Below, in pieces: positions 33,169-41,024 of a DNA stretch of 64,000 nucleotides (position 1 is its first letter; each line of letters begins with the position of its first letter). The notes beneath the pieces were generated by a model that was not told the DNA's origin, did not search any database, and saw only the letters and a program-made list of their open reading frames with translations. The position numbers were made by a program, and so were the translations under genes. This stretch comes from Candidatus Brocadia pituitae (GTDB lineage Bacteria > Planctomycetota > Brocadiia > Brocadiales > Brocadiaceae), in assembly GCA_017347445.1 (NCBI GenBank), contig AP021856.1:3852613-3916612 (forward strand). Direction: 5' to 3'.

Positions 33169-34488
33169 TTAGTACCCTTTTATCCCCCCGGTTGAAACAA
33201 ATTCCGGGTAGGTCGGCGTCATATGTTCTGAAATATCAAGTCCCATCGTCTCGTCTTCTTCACTCACGCGTCCCAACCCTATAGCCTTCAGCCCGCCGAA
33301 GATAATAATGGCGCATACACACGAATAGGCGATACAGATGATGAATCCCAGGGCTTGTATGCCGATATGACAACTGACGCCATGATAGGAAGGCCGTATA
33401 AGACCCATAACGCCAGTTGCAATACCCCCAATAGCGCCCGAGGTGCAATGGACGCCACAGGTACCAACGGTATCGTCGATCCCTATTTTGTCCAGTGACT
33501 TTACCACCAGCGGAATAATTCCTCCGCTGATTACCCCCACGACCAGAGCAAAACCGGGATGGGTAAAACCCACACCTGCGCAGATAGAGACCATGCCTGC
33601 AATCGCCCCGTTTCCGGTGGTGAGCGGGTCTGGTTTATTATTCACCAGCCAACCCCCAAACATTGAGCCCAGGATACCGCCCGCCATGCTCATCGTAACA
33701 TTGATCGTTGTGGTAGGTAAATCGTTTACCAGGATGCTGATCATTTTCCGGGCAGTTTCCGCGCCGGTTGGCTCGCACAACGATCCGACCAATACCGACC
33801 CAACATTAAAACCATAGAAACACACACACAAGATAAATACCCCCAGCATCGTTTGTGAAACATTATGTCCAGGGATGGTATAACATTCGCCACGTCCAAA
33901 CTCAAACAACCATGTCTTCTTACTCATGCGTGCATATTTCTCCATTCGCGGCCCCACAATCATTGCGGCAATAAGGGCTGTTAAACCTCCCTGAAAATGT
34001 ACCACCACGGACCCTGCATAATCCACATAGCCCCACCGCAACAGCGGTCCTGCCGACCATGCCAGCCATCCAAAAAACGGATACATGAAACCGCAATAGA
34101 GCACGACGTAAATCAGATACGCCTTAAAGCTAAATCTCTCTGAAATGGAACCCGAAGCTATTGAGCATGAAACCAGGCAAAATCCCCACATGGTAAACCA
34201 ATGTCCATACACATTCAGTTTGTCCACATGTCCCGGATCGGTTACTCCAAGAAGGCAGTAGTTCCAGTTACCAGAGAAAATGGCGAACCCGAACAGCCAC
34301 CAGACCAGGGAACCAAGCCCTATATTAGCGCAGATCTTCATATAGACGTGGGTGGCATTCTTAGACCGGACCTGCCCGCTCTCCAGGAACGCAAAACCAG
34401 CCTGCATAAAAAAGACTAAAATTCCGGTAATAATTAACCAAAATATATAGATAATCAGAATAATATCTCTTGCTAATATGTCTACCAT
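33169..34488 (-). CDS. amt: ammonium transporter, Amt family
   Basis: A 439-residue polytopic protein with eleven hydrophobic helices. The FMQAGFAFLESGQVRSKN motif after the first helix is characteristic of Amt. The twin histidines appear in DYAGSVVVHFQGG and TCGVHCTSGAIGG, and GFNVGS lies by the pore gate. The start at ATG 34488 has GGAGA seven bases upstream; the extra eight codons upstream are unlikely. No GlnK gene is adjacent. The CGVHCTSGAIGG segment departs from the common GVHGVGGxxG. Confidence 0.93.
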   Translation of the reverse strand: MVDILARDIILIIYIFWLIITGILVFFMQAGFAFLESGQVRSKNATHVYMKICANIGLGSLVWWLFGFAIFSGNWNYCLLGVTDPGHVDKLNVYGHWFTMWGFCLVSCSIASGSISERFSFKAYLIYVVLYCGFMYPFFGWLAWSAGPLLRWGYVDYAGSVVVHFQGGLTALIAAMIVGPRMEKYARMSKKTWLFEFGRGECYTIPGHNVSQTMLGVFILCVCFYGFNVGSVLVGSLCEPTGAETARKMISILVNDLPTTTINVTMSMAGGILGSMFGGWLVNNKPDPLTTGNGAIAGMVSICAGVGFTHPGFALVVGVISGGIIPLVVKSLDKIGIDDTVGTCGVHCTSGAIGGIATGVMGLIRPSYHGVSCHIGIQALGFIICIAYSCVCAIIIFGGLKAIGLGRVSEEDETMGLDISEHMTPTYPEFVSTGGIKGY

Positions 34489-34966
34489 AAGGTATCTCCT
34501 TTTTCCAAACACATCGGACCACAGGCGTACGAAAGTCGCTCATAATTTTTGCTGTCACAAAATATACTACCACTATCAAAAAAAGTAATCAATAGAATAT
34601 TCACAGCAATGTCAAAGTTCGTACGGACATAGTGGGGGTTGTTTTCAATGCTCCAATGTTCACAACTTAGTCCGGCTTTCACAATTCGAGGGGTAGGCAA
34701 ACCGCTAAGCTAGGAAAACCAAGGGATCGTGGAAGAAGATCGTCACTACAAGGCCTTTTGAACATTTTGCATTTTACGTCTCAGAAAAGCACAGGGTTGC
34801 AGGCAGTTGGCTTGTTTGGTTTTAGGAAAAATAGGAACAGCGTTCTTTTATAAAAAATCATTGACGGGCTCGATAAAGAAATGCAGGCATTAGGTGTCGT
34901 GCGGACGCTTGTCCTGCCAGTGAAGGGAGTTTAAGGTCGTTGCCGAAGTTCGCCTGATTTAGGTCT
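34489..34966. other. non-coding gap between amt and the GH15 gene
   Basis: This 478-base stretch holds the amt ribosome-binding site and leader at its left end. I see no gene, RNA fold or clear promoter in the rest. Confidence 0.4.
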
Positions 34967-37294
34967 TTAAGCCATTTTCATCGTGATTGCCCCTACCGGG
35001 CAACATTTTTCAAATCCCGGCTTGATGTCCCAGGTGGCAGTCTTGCCGGCAATAATTTTTGCCTTGTCGTCAACCACATCAATAGCCCCATTTGCGTTTG
35101 CAACGCAGATTCCGCACCCCACACAGCGCCTCTGATCTATTTTCACGGTAATATGTTCACCGTCTTTTTTGAAATTCGCCTCATCAAGGTACTGAATCTG
35201 TTCATGATCAGAGACGGCACCAGAATATACCGGTAAATGTTTTTTTATTTGTTGACGTCCTCCCCGATCATAATGAAATATTGACCGACCGCACCGTTCG
35301 CACGTATGTAACTCCTGCAATTTTTCCAGGTAATCCATTACCGTTTGCACTACCGTGGCGTGGCTCCATGTCAGAGGAGAGACGGAAATCGGTTCACCGG
35401 TAAACGGGTTTATCTGCTCTGCCAGCACACCGGAGGGTAATGCGCGTGATACCGTCCAGCGGAGAGTGTTCACCACCCGTTCAAGATCTTCGACAGACTT
35501 TGCGATTGACACGTAGTATTGCGCCAGCCACATGGTACAGATAATCCATGGATTTCCCGGAATCGTGCCATCATTTCCGATACGCTGGTATCCGTCATTC
35601 TCATACCGGGCAATCCCGCCTATCTTTGTCCTGACCCATAAGGCATCTTCGATTGCCTTCATCGTATTTTGTATCTTGATGTCAAAGGGATCATACACGC
35701 CAAAGGCAAACATCCCGTACAGGCTGGCATCGATGGTTGCATCAATTTCATAATCCCCATCTTTCTTTGGATAGATCATGCGCAGGAATCTCTGATGTTC
35801 CTCGCTGTAAAGATATTGATCGATAGCCTTTTTGATCTGGGCTGCAGTCTCCCGATATAATAAGGCCTTTTCAGTATGATAAAAGATGTCAGAAAGGTTT
35901 GCCGCAGCTATGAGTCCGCCATATACCGTGGCTGTGGTGAAGGACAGGATACCGCGCCTTTCTTCCCACAGATCATAGGAAGGAAGCGGCAACCCCGTCT
36001 GTTCATCCCGGTAACTTACCAGAAAGTCCGCGGCTTTTTCCACAAAGGAATGATAGAGGGGGCGTAGCTCGTCCATCTTCCGGTACAGATCGTAGTAACG
36101 CCATATTGCCCACAGAATCAGTGCTGTCTCATCTTCCTGGATAGGTACATGTATCTCTTCTCCCTTTACCCAGGGATGCCAGGAACTGCCGAAAGAGCCA
36201 TCGGGGTTGTATTTATGCAATAAAAATCCGTCTTCCACCATAACGCTGGCACAGAAATTATAGGAGGCGATGGTGTTTGCGCAAAAGTTAAAAAAATTCC
36301 GGCATGCGTTTGTGTATCCAGCCTTCATGAGTGCATAGGAGACCATGGCGCCGTCTCGTGGCCACATATAACTATAGGTGTCTTTTGCAAACTGCTTAAT
36401 ATCGGAATCATTTGCAGCAATGATAGCGCCGCCGCTGTCTATCTGGGTCGTAAGGATTAACAGGCTTCTTTTAAAAAGGTCAACAACGTCGGCAGGCAGA
36501 TTCCCGAAGTTAAATTCCTCTTTATTTACCCAATGTCGCCAGTAACTTGCCGTTCTATCGATTATTTTTTGCGGTTTATCGTGCAAAAGAATGTCATTCA
36601 GGGCGTCTACCTCGCTGTAATTCCTGCCAGCAGCGATCCAATAATAGACAACGGATTCACCATGGGGTGGAATTTCCAATGAAACGCCGATGGTCGAGTC
36701 AACCGATCCCTGTGCTATGGGATTGCCACCCAAGATACCGTCTTCGGCGTCACGCCAGGTCCCTTCAGCGCCGCGGAGTCTCTTAATTCCCGTTGCGTAT
36801 TCTCTCACTCCCCATACATCTCCGGCAGAGCAATTGATCAAAAAATACCGTGGCCCTTTGTAATGAATAAGGCAATTTAGCTTTGCGTCGTAAAATACGG
36901 TATCGCCAATCTCGTTTTCCATGACGCTCATATCCTGATGGAAAAAAAGTCGGACTTCTCTTTCGTATTTTCTGAGATTCCGGATAATTACCTTGCGCAT
37001 ATAGATGCTCTTCTCGAAATCGACAACATCGTTGCAGGCAAGCAGAAGCCCCATCCTTTCATGGGATGCCCGGACATCCGTCACAAGGGTTTCTTGCAAA
37101 TACCCCATGCTGATCTTCCAGTCCTTTGCATTGACCCACGAAAAGCCTTCGTGCGTCCATACGCCAAATCTGCAGGGATAGCCGAGGGTTTGATTTTCTT
37201 TGCCTACGCGCGGGTAGTACAAGTCCCTGATTGTGTAGTCAGTGTCAAATGCGATTAATAACGAACCGTTTCCAACGGGAATATCTCTAGGCAC
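34967..37294 (-). CDS. GH15 glucoamylase-like enzyme fused to [4Fe-4S] ferredoxin domain
   Basis: This is a 775-residue protein. Residues 1-250 form the N-terminal beta-sandwich of bacterial GH15 enzymes (IPVGNGSLLIAFDTDYTIRD). The (alpha/alpha)6 barrel (about 260-655) holds YMWPRDGAM at 310-318, the general-acid region DLWEERRGILSFTTATVYGG at 442-461 and PLTWSHATVV near the end. GH15 enzymes release glucose from the non-reducing ends of alpha-glucans. The last 110 residues are unusual: a CERC pair at 665-668, then a mono-cluster ferredoxin (CVGCGICV at 724-731 and the closing CCPVGAI at 764-770), enough ligands for one [4Fe-4S] cluster. The frame is continuous, with no sign of a sequencing fusion. 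The electron-transfer role in a glycosidase is unexplained. Confidence 0.88.
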   Translation of the reverse strand: MPRDIPVGNGSLLIAFDTDYTIRDLYYPRVGKENQTLGYPCRFGVWTHEGFSWVNAKDWKISMGYLQETLVTDVRASHERMGLLLACNDVVDFEKSIYMRKVIIRNLRKYEREVRLFFHQDMSVMENEIGDTVFYDAKLNCLIHYKGPRYFLINCSAGDVWGVREYATGIKRLRGAEGTWRDAEDGILGGNPIAQGSVDSTIGVSLEIPPHGESVVYYWIAAGRNYSEVDALNDILLHDKPQKIIDRTASYWRHWVNKEEFNFGNLPADVVDLFKRSLLILTTQIDSGGAIIAANDSDIKQFAKDTYSYMWPRDGAMVSYALMKAGYTNACRNFFNFCANTIASYNFCASVMVEDGFLLHKYNPDGSFGSSWHPWVKGEEIHVPIQEDETALILWAIWRYYDLYRKMDELRPLYHSFVEKAADFLVSYRDEQTGLPLPSYDLWEERRGILSFTTATVYGGLIAAANLSDIFYHTEKALLYRETAAQIKKAIDQYLYSEEHQRFLRMIYPKKDGDYEIDATIDASLYGMFAFGVYDPFDIKIQNTMKAIEDALWVRTKIGGIARYENDGYQRIGNDGTIPGNPWIICTMWLAQYYVSIAKSVEDLERVVNTLRWTVSRALPSGVLAEQINPFTGEPISVSPLTWSHATVVQTVMDYLEKLQELHTCERCGRSIFHYDRGGRQQIKKHLPVYSGAVSDHEQIQYLDEANFKKDGEHITVKIDQRRCVGCGICVANANGAIDVVDDKAKIIAGKTATWDIKPGFEKCCPVGAITMKMA

Positions 37295-37344
37295 AATTGT
37301 CTTCCTTCTGATAATTTGATGTTAAGAAATTTTAAGCAATAGTT

Positions 37345-37494
37345 CCACCCCCCCGATGGGGGTGGTTAAGGTGGGAGTGAAAGAAGAATACTTACCCGCC
37401 CCTGACCAGCTCATCAAAGGGAGGGAGGGAATAAGCCACCCCTGAATCCCCTCCCAAGAGGGGACTTTTCAAAGTCCTCTTTTGGGAGGAGGGG
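37345..37494. repeat. hairpin-rich repeat (two inverted repeats)
   Basis: CCACCCCC/GGGGGTGG (37345-37365) is an 8-bp hairpin. CCTCCCAAGAGGGGACTTT and AAAGTCCTCTTTTGGGAGG (37450-37489) form a stem of about 19 pairs with a two-base loop. Both look like small dispersed (REP/MITE-like) elements in the gap between the GH15 and pcm genes. Confidence 0.55.
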
Positions 37495-37521
37495 CTTCCG
37501 GAATCTGTGTTCGATGTACGA

Positions 37522-38187
37522 TTACTCTCCTTTCCAGCCTTCTTCACCAATGAGTGGCACAAAGGCACATTCCAGGACATTCCGGTCTTCTGCTCCCTTT
37601 TCCCGCTTTACTATCTGGTGTAATACCTGATTATAAGGATTCCCCATAGGTATTATCAATCGTCCACCCATTTCAAGCTGATCTAACAAACTTTTTGGGG
37701 CGTGCGGGGCACAGGCAGTAACTATAATTCCCTGGAAAGGGGCATTGTCAGGCAATCCCGGACTTCCGTCTCCTACGATGACGTCTATATTATCATACCC
37801 CGCCTGATGTAAAATGGCTTTTGCCCTTGATGCAAGCGCTGCATGACGTTCAACGGTATAAATGTGATTTGCCAGTCTGCTGAGTATTGCCGCCTGATAT
37901 CCCGAACCGGTTCCTATTTCCAGCACCTTTTCATCCCCTTTTAATTCAAGACACTGCGTCATGATGGCTACCATATAGGGTTGCGAGATGGTTTGTCCTT
38001 CTCCAATAGGCAACGGACAATCATCATACGCAGCGTGCCGGTAGGCTTCCGGTACAAAAAGGTGCCTGGGCACTTCCAGCATTGCCTTCAGTACTCGTTT
38101 GTCGTGAATACCCCGATTCACAAGTTGGTATTGTACCATGTGAAACCGGTCTGTGGCATATGTGTCGCTGTTTTGTGAAGTATCCAA
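37522..38187 (-). CDS. pcm: protein-L-isoaspartate O-methyltransferase
   Basis: The 221-residue protein has the Pcm signature GEGQTISQPYMVAIMTQ followed by the SAM motif VLEIGTGSGYQAAIL, and PFQGIIVTACAP and GGRLIIPMG further on. It repairs isoaspartyl residues in damaged proteins by carboxyl methylation. Length and motif order are normal. It is monocistronic, with repeats downstream. Confidence 0.96.
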   Translation of the reverse strand: MDTSQNSDTYATDRFHMVQYQLVNRGIHDKRVLKAMLEVPRHLFVPEAYRHAAYDDCPLPIGEGQTISQPYMVAIMTQCLELKGDEKVLEIGTGSGYQAAILSRLANHIYTVERHAALASRAKAILHQAGYDNIDVIVGDGSPGLPDNAPFQGIIVTACAPHAPKSLLDQLEMGGRLIIPMGNPYNQVLHQIVKREKGAEDRNVLECAFVPLIGEEGWKGE

Positions 38188-38264
38188 AGTGTACCTTCTA
38201 AAACATTATTTATCAACATGACGGATGCAATACCTGTGGGGCTCAACAACACAAAAAGTTGTCT

Positions 38265-38330
38265 TCAAATCTTTTCCTCGCCGTTGAAAAAATAGATCAC
38301 AGAATTGGTATCAAGCAAGTAGCCAGACAT
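38265..38330 (-). pseudogene. 21-codon stump of a PIN (VapC) toxin
   Basis: On the minus strand, directly after the antitoxin stop (TAA-T-ATG), a frame reads MSGYLLDTNSVIYFFNGEEK plus one residue and then stops. YLLDTNxVIYFxNGE is the conserved first strand and catalytic Asp of PIN toxins. The remaining ~110 residues are missing; Pcm coding sequence starts 78 bases further on. The toxin is therefore dead. Confidence 0.8.
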
Positions 38331-38331
38331 A

Positions 38332-38538
38332 TTAATCCCATTCGCTTCTGATTTTTTTTTGATACGCTAGCCCATTACCCCTTTTTTTAAGTATACCTTT
38401 GAAACGAGAAAGTTTTGGAATTTTGCGTGACCCTTCTTCTACAATAGTTATGAGCAGTATTGCCTTTTTAAGAGGCGGCATGGCTTCTTTATAAATAATT
38501 TTACCATTTTCGTAATATGCCTCTATAGTTTTATACAT
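38332..38538 (-). CDS. antitoxin-like protein left beside a dead PIN toxin
   Basis: The 68-residue protein starts MYKTIEAYYENGKIIYKEAM, the pattern of AF2212/DUF104-like antitoxins (short beta N-terminus), with a basic tail KGILKKRGNGLAYQKK. It immediately precedes the PIN stump, in the antitoxin-toxin order. It may still be made and could cross-neutralise a related toxin or simply be decaying. Confidence 0.65.
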   Translation of the reverse strand: MYKTIEAYYENGKIIYKEAMPPLKKAILLITIVEEGSRKIPKLSRFKGILKKRGNGLAYQKKIRSEWD

Positions 38539-38639
38539 AATTTTTCCTCTTTCAAAATATTCTTGTGTTGACAGACGTATTAGATGTTCTCATTGGTTTT
38601 GTAACGTATGCGGATTGGGTTAAATAAATCTTTTGAACC

Positions 38640-38815
38640 CGCTATCAATCTGTAATTTAATGAGGCCTTCGGCTACTTTCCCCCCTGTTCCCCCCCCCCG
38701 TAAACAGGGGGAACAGGGGGGGTAATTGAAATTCCTGAACATAAATTTATAACCACCCCATTCCCCTCCTTGGCAAGGAGGGGATAAAGGGGAGGTCTTC
38801 CATCAAGTATTGAGT
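38640..38815. repeat. dispersed intergenic repeat, copy B, with hairpins
   Basis: 38651-38745 is an inverted relative of the sequence at 2170-2265 (GAGGCCTTCGGC, C-tract, CCGTAAACAGGG, G-tract, ATTGAAATTCCTGAACAT). Next to it, CCCCTCCTT-GGC-AAGGAGGGG (38763-38783) is a perfect 9-bp hairpin. The stretch lies between the antitoxin and rtcB genes and has no gene. Confidence 0.6.
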
Positions 38816-38884
38816 AATTATATGCGCCATTAAAATGTTCTGAAGACCCGCACAAATAAAAATGAAAATCCTTATACGACCAAG

Positions 38885-40336
38885 CTACCCCTTAATAACA
38901 CACAACGGCTTTAGCTGGGCAATTTTTTTACCAATACCGGCGTGTTCCACGACATTCACGACTTCGGTCACATTCTTATATGCCTCAGGGATCTCCTCAT
39001 CCAGAGTGGCACGGCTGTCGGCACGGACGAGGATCCCCTTTTCCTTCAGTTCCTGGGCAATGCTGCGGCCTTTGGATGCCTTTACTGCCTGATTTCTGCT
39101 CATAACCCTGCCCGCTCCATGACAGGTGCTTCCAAAGGTATCGGCATAGGCCTTCTCAGTGCCAACAAGCACATACGAACAGCGTCCCATATCTCCCGGT
39201 ATCAGTACCGGTTGTCCCACAGATTTATAGGTATCCGGGGTATGTGGATGATTCGGCGGAAATGCGCGCGTTGCCCCTTTCCGGTGCACACATAAACGCT
39301 TCTGCTCTCCCTCCACGATATGTTCTTCAAATTTGGCAATATTATGACACACATCATAAATCAGGGATATTTGCGACTCTTTTGGACCTATGTGTAAGGC
39401 GCTTTCAAAGGACTCTCTTACCCAGTGGGTGATCATCTGCCGGTTGGCAAAGGCATAGTTAGCGGCGCCGGCCATGGCAGCGAGGTATTCCCGCCCTTCC
39501 GGAGAGCTGATCGGGGCACAGCAGAGTTGCCGGTCAGGGAGTTCTATATTATATTTCCGTGATGCATTAATCATGATCCGTATGGAGTCGTCACAGACCT
39601 GATAACCCAGTCCTCTTGAACCCGTGTGTACCACGATGGTAATCCCGTCTCTTATGAGCCCCAATACTCGGGCAATTTCTTCGTCATACACCTCCGAGAC
39701 ATAGCCAACCTCAACAAAATGATTTCCAGAACCTAACGTGCCTAATTGTGTCCGCCCCCGTTCTAAGGCGCGATCCGAAACCAGCTCCGGGTCTGCTCCC
39801 GGAATGCAACCCTGTTCTTCGATATGCTCCAGGTCTTCCTTGGTGCCATAACCCTGCGAGACTGCCCATCGCGCCCCATCTCTGAGCACGTTTTTTTCGT
39901 CTTGATGGGAAAGCTTTAAATCCTTGCGGTGTGATCCAACCCCCGACGGAATATTGGCAAAGAGGGTATTAACCAGGGATTCCATTTTGTGGGAAATTTC
40001 TGTATGATAAAGCCCTGTCCGCAGCAGTCTTACCCCGCAGTTGATGTCATATCCCACGCCACCAGGGGATACCACGCCCTCATCAGCATCAAATGCAGCT
40101 ACGCCCCCAATAGGAAATCCATATCCCCAATGAATATCAGGCATTCCCAGGGAATGTCTAACGATCCCCGGCAGATGCGCGACATTAATCACCTGCTGAA
40201 GACTTTCATCTTTTTGAATTTCTTTCAGCATTTGTTCGTCGGCATACACAATGCCATCCACTCGCATCTTTCCTTCTCTGGGGATACGCCAACGATAGTC
40301 GTCTATCTTTTGAATTTTGTATTTGTCGTCTGCCAT
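38885..40336 (-). CDS. rtcB: RNA-splicing ligase RtcB
   Basis: The 483-residue protein has the RtcB hallmarks: MPDIHWGYGFPIGGVAAFD, PGGVGYDINCGVRLL (metal-binding Asp/Cys), GTLGSGNHFVEV, VVHTGSRGLGYQV, YDVCHNIAKFE and the late GTCHGAGRVMSR with the GMP-accepting histidine. It joins 2',3'-cyclic phosphate or 3'-phosphate RNA ends to 5'-OH using GTP and Mn. The start is at ATG 40336 with AAGGGGG seven bases upstream. Its activator archease is the next gene upstream on the same strand. Confidence 0.96.
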   Translation of the reverse strand: MADDKYKIQKIDDYRWRIPREGKMRVDGIVYADEQMLKEIQKDESLQQVINVAHLPGIVRHSLGMPDIHWGYGFPIGGVAAFDADEGVVSPGGVGYDINCGVRLLRTGLYHTEISHKMESLVNTLFANIPSGVGSHRKDLKLSHQDEKNVLRDGARWAVSQGYGTKEDLEHIEEQGCIPGADPELVSDRALERGRTQLGTLGSGNHFVEVGYVSEVYDEEIARVLGLIRDGITIVVHTGSRGLGYQVCDDSIRIMINASRKYNIELPDRQLCCAPISSPEGREYLAAMAGAANYAFANRQMITHWVRESFESALHIGPKESQISLIYDVCHNIAKFEEHIVEGEQKRLCVHRKGATRAFPPNHPHTPDTYKSVGQPVLIPGDMGRCSYVLVGTEKAYADTFGSTCHGAGRVMSRNQAVKASKGRSIAQELKEKGILVRADSRATLDEEIPEAYKNVTEVVNVVEHAGIGKKIAQLKPLCVIKG

Positions 40337-40443
40337 ACACAAACCCCCTTTTCCACAAAAATGGAAAGCGTTAACCGTCAGTTACCGGCATTCAGCTCAT
40401 AGATAAGCGTTTCTGGACGAACGGTTTTTTGCCCAAATTTCAC

Positions 40444-40860
40444 TTACAAATCAAATATCACTCGTGCCTTCCAACAGTCATTTTCCCGGACAACTGATAA
40501 GCAGTGATACGTAACTGCCTTAATCTCCGTTTTTATCACGTGTTTATCTTCTTCCATCACATCGCCTCGTACGACGGCATCTAACTGATTGTCCGTAATA
40601 TCCACAATACAAAAATCATGGAACAGGAGATTTTTTACGTCATGCAAATACAAGAGCTCATTTAACCAATTAACCAGTAACTGTTCCTTATCTATCCCGG
40701 AAATGCTTATTTTATATTCGACCTTACCTTCTACCTTTGACAGATCGGTAATGATATCAAATAAGGCAAACGCCGCATTGGTAAATAATTCCTGCAATGA
40801 GGCGCCATAGACATCGATCCCGATGTCTGCGGTGTGGTCTATAAGTATATATTTCTCCAT
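40444..40860 (-). CDS. archease
   Basis: The 138-residue protein from ATG 40860 reads MEKYILIDHTADIGIDVYGA, with the metal-binding DHTADIG, then LFTNAAFALFDIITD and the late VRGDVMEEDKHVIKTEIKAV. Archease stimulates RtcB guanylylation and multiple turnover. The longer open frame (53 more codons) lacks family similarity. Adjacent to rtcB, which supports the functional pair. Confidence 0.93.
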   Translation of the reverse strand: MEKYILIDHTADIGIDVYGASLQELFTNAAFALFDIITDLSKVEGKVEYKISISGIDKEQLLVNWLNELLYLHDVKNLLFHDFCIVDITDNQLDAVVRGDVMEEDKHVIKTEIKAVTYHCLSVVRENDCWKARVIFDL

Positions 40861-41024
40861 TTTCAAGCCAGGCACGGACAAACTTGTTTTGTTAACGCCA
40901 CCCTGTGATATTAAAATTCCTTGAATTTCAAAGGACTTCTGCGACTTTTTCCTGGAGAGCGAAGAGTCTCTTTCCTCTGCAAACCGCATAAATAAAATGA
41001 AGATTTCTCTACGGCCCAATTACC

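Follow-up and report, generated by a model that had tools for sequence, protein, structure and literature searches.

A stretch of 64,000 nucleotides of the Candidatus Brocadia pituitae genome (hereafter, the window) encodes a GH15 glycoside hydrolase continued, in the same reading frame, by a C-terminal ferredoxin domain of the single-cluster [4Fe-4S] type. The fusion is real and no frameshift artefact. It is conserved among anammox bacteria, a point that the first-pass annotation of this DNA understated. Both parts are of known kinds (GH15 enzyme and single-cluster ferredoxin), and what appears to be new is their fusion: a literature search on GH15 and 4Fe-4S returned no report of such a protein, and the available portion of an extensive review on alpha-glucan enzymes in prokaryotes does not mention a ferredoxin.

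The fusion gene and its reading frame

The gene is a single open frame on the minus strand (34967-37294), which starts with GTG at 37294, stops at 34967, and encodes 775 aa. Its features are listed below by window coordinates and strand, with the basis of each assignment in brackets.

34967..37294, minus: GH15-ferredoxin gene (open frame; length and domain order the same in 28 distinct sequences)
37301..37306, minus: Shine-Dalgarno-like AGGAAG, 6 bases before the GTG (direct sequence reading)
35330..37294, minus: GH15 enzyme with N-terminal beta domain and alpha/alpha barrel, residues 1-655 (PF00723, TIGR01577, Foldseek 1lf6)
36239..36274, minus (36239-36304 with C331 and C338 just before): anammox-clade insertion of about 10 aa near an active-site loop, with invariant C348 (sequence comparison)
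35963..35965, minus: predicted general acid E444, DLWEE motif (invariant in 58 sequences; aligns with WEE of glucoamylases 1lf6 and 27xj)
35417..35419, minus: predicted general base E626, LAEQ motif (invariant in 58 sequences; aligns with EQ of 1lf6 and 27xj)
35246..35329, minus: CxxCG tail segment, residues 656-683 (CxxC invariant; also in ferredoxin-less homologues L002, L128, L156, and L163)
35291..35302, minus: CxxC pair C665/C668 (sequence and alignment)
35159..35245, minus: variable linker, probably disordered, residues 684-712 (conservation, model confidence, dN)
34970..35158, minus: single-cluster [4Fe-4S] ferredoxin domain, residues 713-775, with C724, C727, C730, C765, and an extra C764 (Pfam, structure-profile match, invariant cysteines)

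The first-pass annotation had placed a GH15 enzyme in the same frame as a single-cluster ferredoxin, and both the profile matches and the 28 distinct full-length sequences agree with this. A search for the same domain order in other genomes recovered the fusion in 29 genomes of the order; no frameshift was found near residue 660, and close relatives carry the fusion as well. By sequence, the relatives Brocadia carolinensis (88%) and Brocadia sapporoensis (86%) assign the window to an anammox Brocadia. The uninterrupted order in the 28 sequences, the invariant cysteines of the tail, and the dN/dS of the ferredoxin (see below) thus indicate that the arrangement is due neither to chance nor to a frameshift. 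An assembly error, frameshift, or read-through joining two separate genes is a practically negligible explanation, already refuted by the relatives, as the frame recurs intact in independent assemblies and the window belongs to a genome assembled as a single contig of 4.08 Mb.

The catalytic part and the C-terminal tail

Residues 1-655 had been described as a complete GH15 enzyme, and the profile searches bore this out. The PF00723 match (residues 276-651, 108 bits against a cut-off of 22) assigned the protein to GH15, and the TIGR01577 oligosaccharide amylase model was matched over nearly its whole length (residues 13-656) with 334.9 bits, which is below its curated equivalog cut-off of 820.7, so that the protein is related to that family but is not assigned to it. 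The models of archaeal GH15 trehalases NF041084 and NF041085 gave 83 and 67 bits, below their curated cut-offs of 820 and 1000, respectively. The best Foldseek match of the GH15 part was the bacterial glucoamylase 1lf6 (E=1.6e-28). The protein shares with these oligosaccharide amylases and glucoamylases the (alpha/alpha)6 barrel, the N-terminal beta domain, both catalytic Glu residues, and the WPRDG motif, whose catalytic-site residues W311, R313, and D314 are invariant in the 58-sequence alignment, in which archaeal and bacterial homologues are included. Reading of the sequence (MPRDIPVGNGSLL) by eye showed no signal peptide; therefore, the protein is probably cytoplasmic.

What sets the fusion protein apart from known GH15 proteins is the linker, the ferredoxin, and, close to the active site, the insertion, which spans about 10 aa and brings an additional Cys. 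The insertion is present in the fused proteins and in two ferredoxin-less close relatives but not in the paralogues, and model confidence is <50 at residues 344-353. The cysteines C331, C338, and C348 by the active-site loop may represent a second redox feature, possibly a disulfide switch; since they also occur in the ferredoxin-less relatives, their presence is not linked to that of the ferredoxin.

The tail begins with the CxxCG segment, which is under strong constraint. The CxxC pair noticed earlier at residues 665-668 is indeed present; however, it is no part of the ferredoxin, as the segment is found in the paralogue encoded by the same genome and in ferredoxin-less homologues from Nitrospirota and other Planctomycetota. 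The CxxCG segment therefore most likely arose before the ferredoxin was acquired, as judged from the sequence comparison. The linker that follows has a mean conservation of 62%, a pLDDT <50 at residues 678-698, and, in every comparison, the highest dN among the four segments.

The four ferredoxin cysteines expected within residues 724-765 were identified as C724, C727, C730, and C765. All seven cysteines of the tail, five of them in the ferredoxin, are invariant in the 28 distinct full-length sequences, that of the window included. When searched alone, the domain scored above the Pfam cut-offs for Fer4 and Fer4_15; for Fer4_15, the score was 24.5 against a gathering cut-off of 22.4, falling to 16.9, below the cut-off, inside the whole protein, and two homologues remained just under it (20.8 and 21.5). 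The Thermotoga maritima ferredoxin (1rof/1vjw) was matched with E=3e-4 by sequence and 1e-6 as a profile. The ligand pattern of Fer4_15, C-x2-C-x2-C ... C-P, is found at the four cysteines and is conserved, and the 34 residues between C730 and C765 equal the spacing of the third and fourth ligands in the T. maritima protein. The motif C-x2-C-x2-C-x34-C-P, a similar length, and a similar predicted order of strands and helices are shared with 1vjw/1rof, Pyrococcus 2z8q, and Fer4_15. Unlike free-standing single-cluster ferredoxins, the domain is tethered to a glycosidase, has one more invariant cysteine, Cys764, next to its fourth ligand, and contains no counterpart of the second Cys pair that is conserved in 1vjw. 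The domain is predicted to bind a [4Fe-4S] cluster. The structure model of the tail alone was too poor for use (pLDDT 54), and no domain interface linking the cluster with the active site was seen.

Distribution and evolution of the fusion

The fusion was found in 29 of the 62 genomes of the order, namely in 27 of 33 Brocadiaceae, including Brocadia, Jettenia, Kuenenia, and others, and in two genomes of the family that contains Scalindua. Outside the order, full-length GH15 matches among 392 sampled Planctomycetota genomes ended near residue 675 or earlier, and no GH15 match in 296 Nitrospirota genomes and 58 genomes of a further phylum reached the ferredoxin. About 60 GH15 homologues from many phyla ended before residue 700 with no ferredoxin alongside; overall, the homologues compared stop at approximately residue 660-700, and those examined all lack a ferredoxin. 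The ferredoxin tail was absent from the long frames L121-L133 and L156-L163 where the C terminus was recovered (L121, L122, L125, L129, and L161 left out), and a motif scan of ferredoxin-less GH15 loci showed no separate ferredoxin gene beside GH15. The view that the arrangement is uncommon was thus upheld: among the genomes and phyla sampled, it is confined to the anammox order, although in other phyla GH15 may have been joined independently to a different ferredoxin.

On the phylogenetic tree, the fused proteins formed one fully supported clade together with two ferredoxin-less proteins, L019 and L110. The AU test weakly rejected the ferredoxin carriers as a single clade (p=0.041, a marginal value), which favours loss of the ferredoxin in L019 and L110. 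A hidden or frameshifted ferredoxin 3' of GH15 in these two loci was discarded after a six-frame check, as none was found and the kinase gene described below begins at once. The existence of two natural relatives without the ferredoxin suggests that catalysis probably does not depend on it. In comparisons with five close relatives, dN/dS was 0.10-0.27 for the ferredoxin and 0.03-0.07 for GH15; the ferredoxin is under purifying selection, less tight than that on GH15. The host genome also encodes a ferredoxin-free GH15 paralogue. Thanks to this paralogue and to the relatives that naturally lack the domain, the role of the ferredoxin can be tested directly with recombinant protein.

Several individual loci deserve mention. 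L019 (JACQQJ010000004.1) comes from a MAG labelled Nitrospinota; its GH15 is 82% identical and is accompanied by an anammox-type kinase, and the MAG is probably mis-binned or the sequence transferred. In genome G034 (contig C160:8970-12902), GH15 is missing and the end of the ferredoxin, about 43 residues, persists upstream of the kinase, likely as a remnant of decay. In genome G016 (C1:3881042-3881263), a second ferredoxin-like stretch that resembles the fusion tail is degenerate and contains two stops.

Gene neighbours and the putative role of the ferredoxin

Since, to our knowledge, GH15 hydrolysis involves neither electrons nor electron-accepting chemistry and glycosidases need no redox cofactor, the most likely role of the ferredoxin would be a regulatory one, and an iron-sulfur module kept on a glycosidase across anammox lineages suggests an unrecognised link between redox or NO status and the use of carbohydrate stores. 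We assign a probability of roughly 0.45 to the reading that the ferredoxin lets the redox, O2, or NO state modulate the hydrolysis of storage glucan. The cytoplasmic GH15 exo-alpha-glucosidase would act on storage alpha-glucan or maltodextrin to free glucose, and the C-terminal [4Fe-4S] ferredoxin would be its in-built regulator. A change in the redox state of the cluster, or attack by O2 or NO that damages or nitrosylates it, would affect how active the enzyme is or how it binds a partner, and glucan breakdown would thereby track the redox or NO state of the cell. This reading is favoured by the intact catalytic machinery, the true mono-cluster profile, the selection on the ferredoxin in 29 genomes, the redox-related context, and the ferredoxin-free paralogue in the same genome.

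The context consists mainly of a histidine kinase gene, which in most loci is followed by genes for two receiver proteins. In 13 of the 28 fused loci, the stop codon of the fusion gene overlaps the kinase start by 4, 11, or 17 bases, and one more has a gap of 11 bp. The kinase carries the Tll0287-like haem domain PF11845 with CxxCH, HAMP, HisKA, HATPase, and two REC domains, as do the Tll0287/DUF3365 (sCache_heme) HAMP histidine kinases; it is the product of a partner gene and no part of the fusion protein. It is the ancestral operon partner of the fusion, in a redox-related operon that would couple the enzyme to a haem-c (Tll0287-type) sensor kinase and two receivers. HAMP-linked Tll0287 domains show NO-sensor properties according to a 2026 preprint that mentions neither anammox nor Planctomycetes (PMC12889525), and NO is an anammox intermediate (PMC7438415, abstract). 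A more specific, tentative proposal is that the fused [4Fe-4S] ferredoxin gates the glycoside hydrolase allosterically and that the enzyme, together with the co-encoded haem kinase, couples anammox storage-glucan breakdown directly to NO, O2, or redox state.

Besides the poor tail model and the lack of a visible interface between cluster and active site, three observations count against the regulatory reading. The operon is broken in the genome of the window itself, where the kinase lies at contig positions 88583-91000, approximately 276 kb away across the contig ends (a distance that assumes a circular chromosome). L019 and L110 keep the kinase overlap without a ferredoxin, which the operon thus does not require. 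Finally, the kinase is retained in four genomes that have no full-length GH15-ferredoxin, one of them perhaps cut at a contig end.

The ferredoxin might instead be a docking or localisation module that tethers GH15 to a partner, such as the kinase or an oxidoreductase, or to glycogen granules, leaving catalysis outside redox control. The variable, probably disordered linker suits a tethered module, and the close translational coupling with the kinase and the intact GH15 domain of the two relatives without ferredoxin also speak for docking; yet within the tail nothing is better conserved than the cluster cysteines, so that the cluster itself seems important, and we regard docking as rather unlikely. 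It is improbable that the domain serves as an electron carrier to or from a redox partner, such as rubrerythrin or flavodiiron proteins, with the fusion merely co-regulating sugar supply and reductant use. A rubrerythrin gene lies directly upstream of the fusion in about 10 loci of the Kuenenia type and two further genera, and its product of about 162 aa, for which all domain matches were of the rubrerythrin type, probably has no rubredoxin domain of its own; however, no rubrerythrin is adjacent in most Brocadia, the window included, and no reductase was recognised nearby. Least probable among these functional alternatives is a structural or vestigial cluster, gained once with the ferredoxin and kept for the stability of the C-terminus. 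The higher dN/dS of the ferredoxin relative to GH15 and the AU result, which fits loss in L019 and L110, agree with it, but all cysteines are retained from Brocadia to the Scalindua-containing family and dN/dS is still well under 1.

Returning to regulation of glucan breakdown, the earlier suggestion that the protein responds to redox state, iron, or oxygen is indirectly supported by the gene context (haem-sensor kinase, rubrerythrin, and ROS genes); the regulation itself and its direction are putative. Glycogen, the substrate proposed earlier, is likewise putative, the closest family model being oligosaccharide amylase. Anammox bacteria reportedly store and use glycogen (Okabe et al. 2021, as cited in PMC13253579). 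The glycogen phenotype of a Sulfolobus GH15 mutant fits a catabolic role (PMC11046441); taken together, these two points make a role in glucan breakdown plausible. Classical phosphorylases were also found, so that the GH15-ferredoxin protein would not be the sole route. Anammox bacteria remove much of the world's fixed nitrogen, and O2 reaches them in oxygen-minimum zones as well as in reactors. Among the electron sources proposed for periods of oxygen exposure is the use of glycogen (PMC13253579).

Some further features of the neighbourhoods were observed. In the host genome (C1:85500-96000; L120:1759-9033), the kinase and two receiver genes are divergent and lie beside genes for a rubrerythrin-like protein, a di-haem cytochrome c peroxidase, and a superoxide dismutase. 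In L012 (4424-5349), a DUF433/PIN-like pair of toxin-antitoxin type, recognised by eye, separates the fusion gene from the kinase, and the last ferredoxin residues are repeated before the kinase, as if an insertion had duplicated the end. The intergenic region 5' of the gene in the window (37295-37520) is rich in CCCCTC/GAGGGG and is perhaps an interspersed repeat; no repeat pair at 14 bases was found in it, and Rfam gave no match within 34000-38900. The genes for RtcB RNA ligase and archease, a known functional pair, adjoin on the same strand (window 38885-41019).
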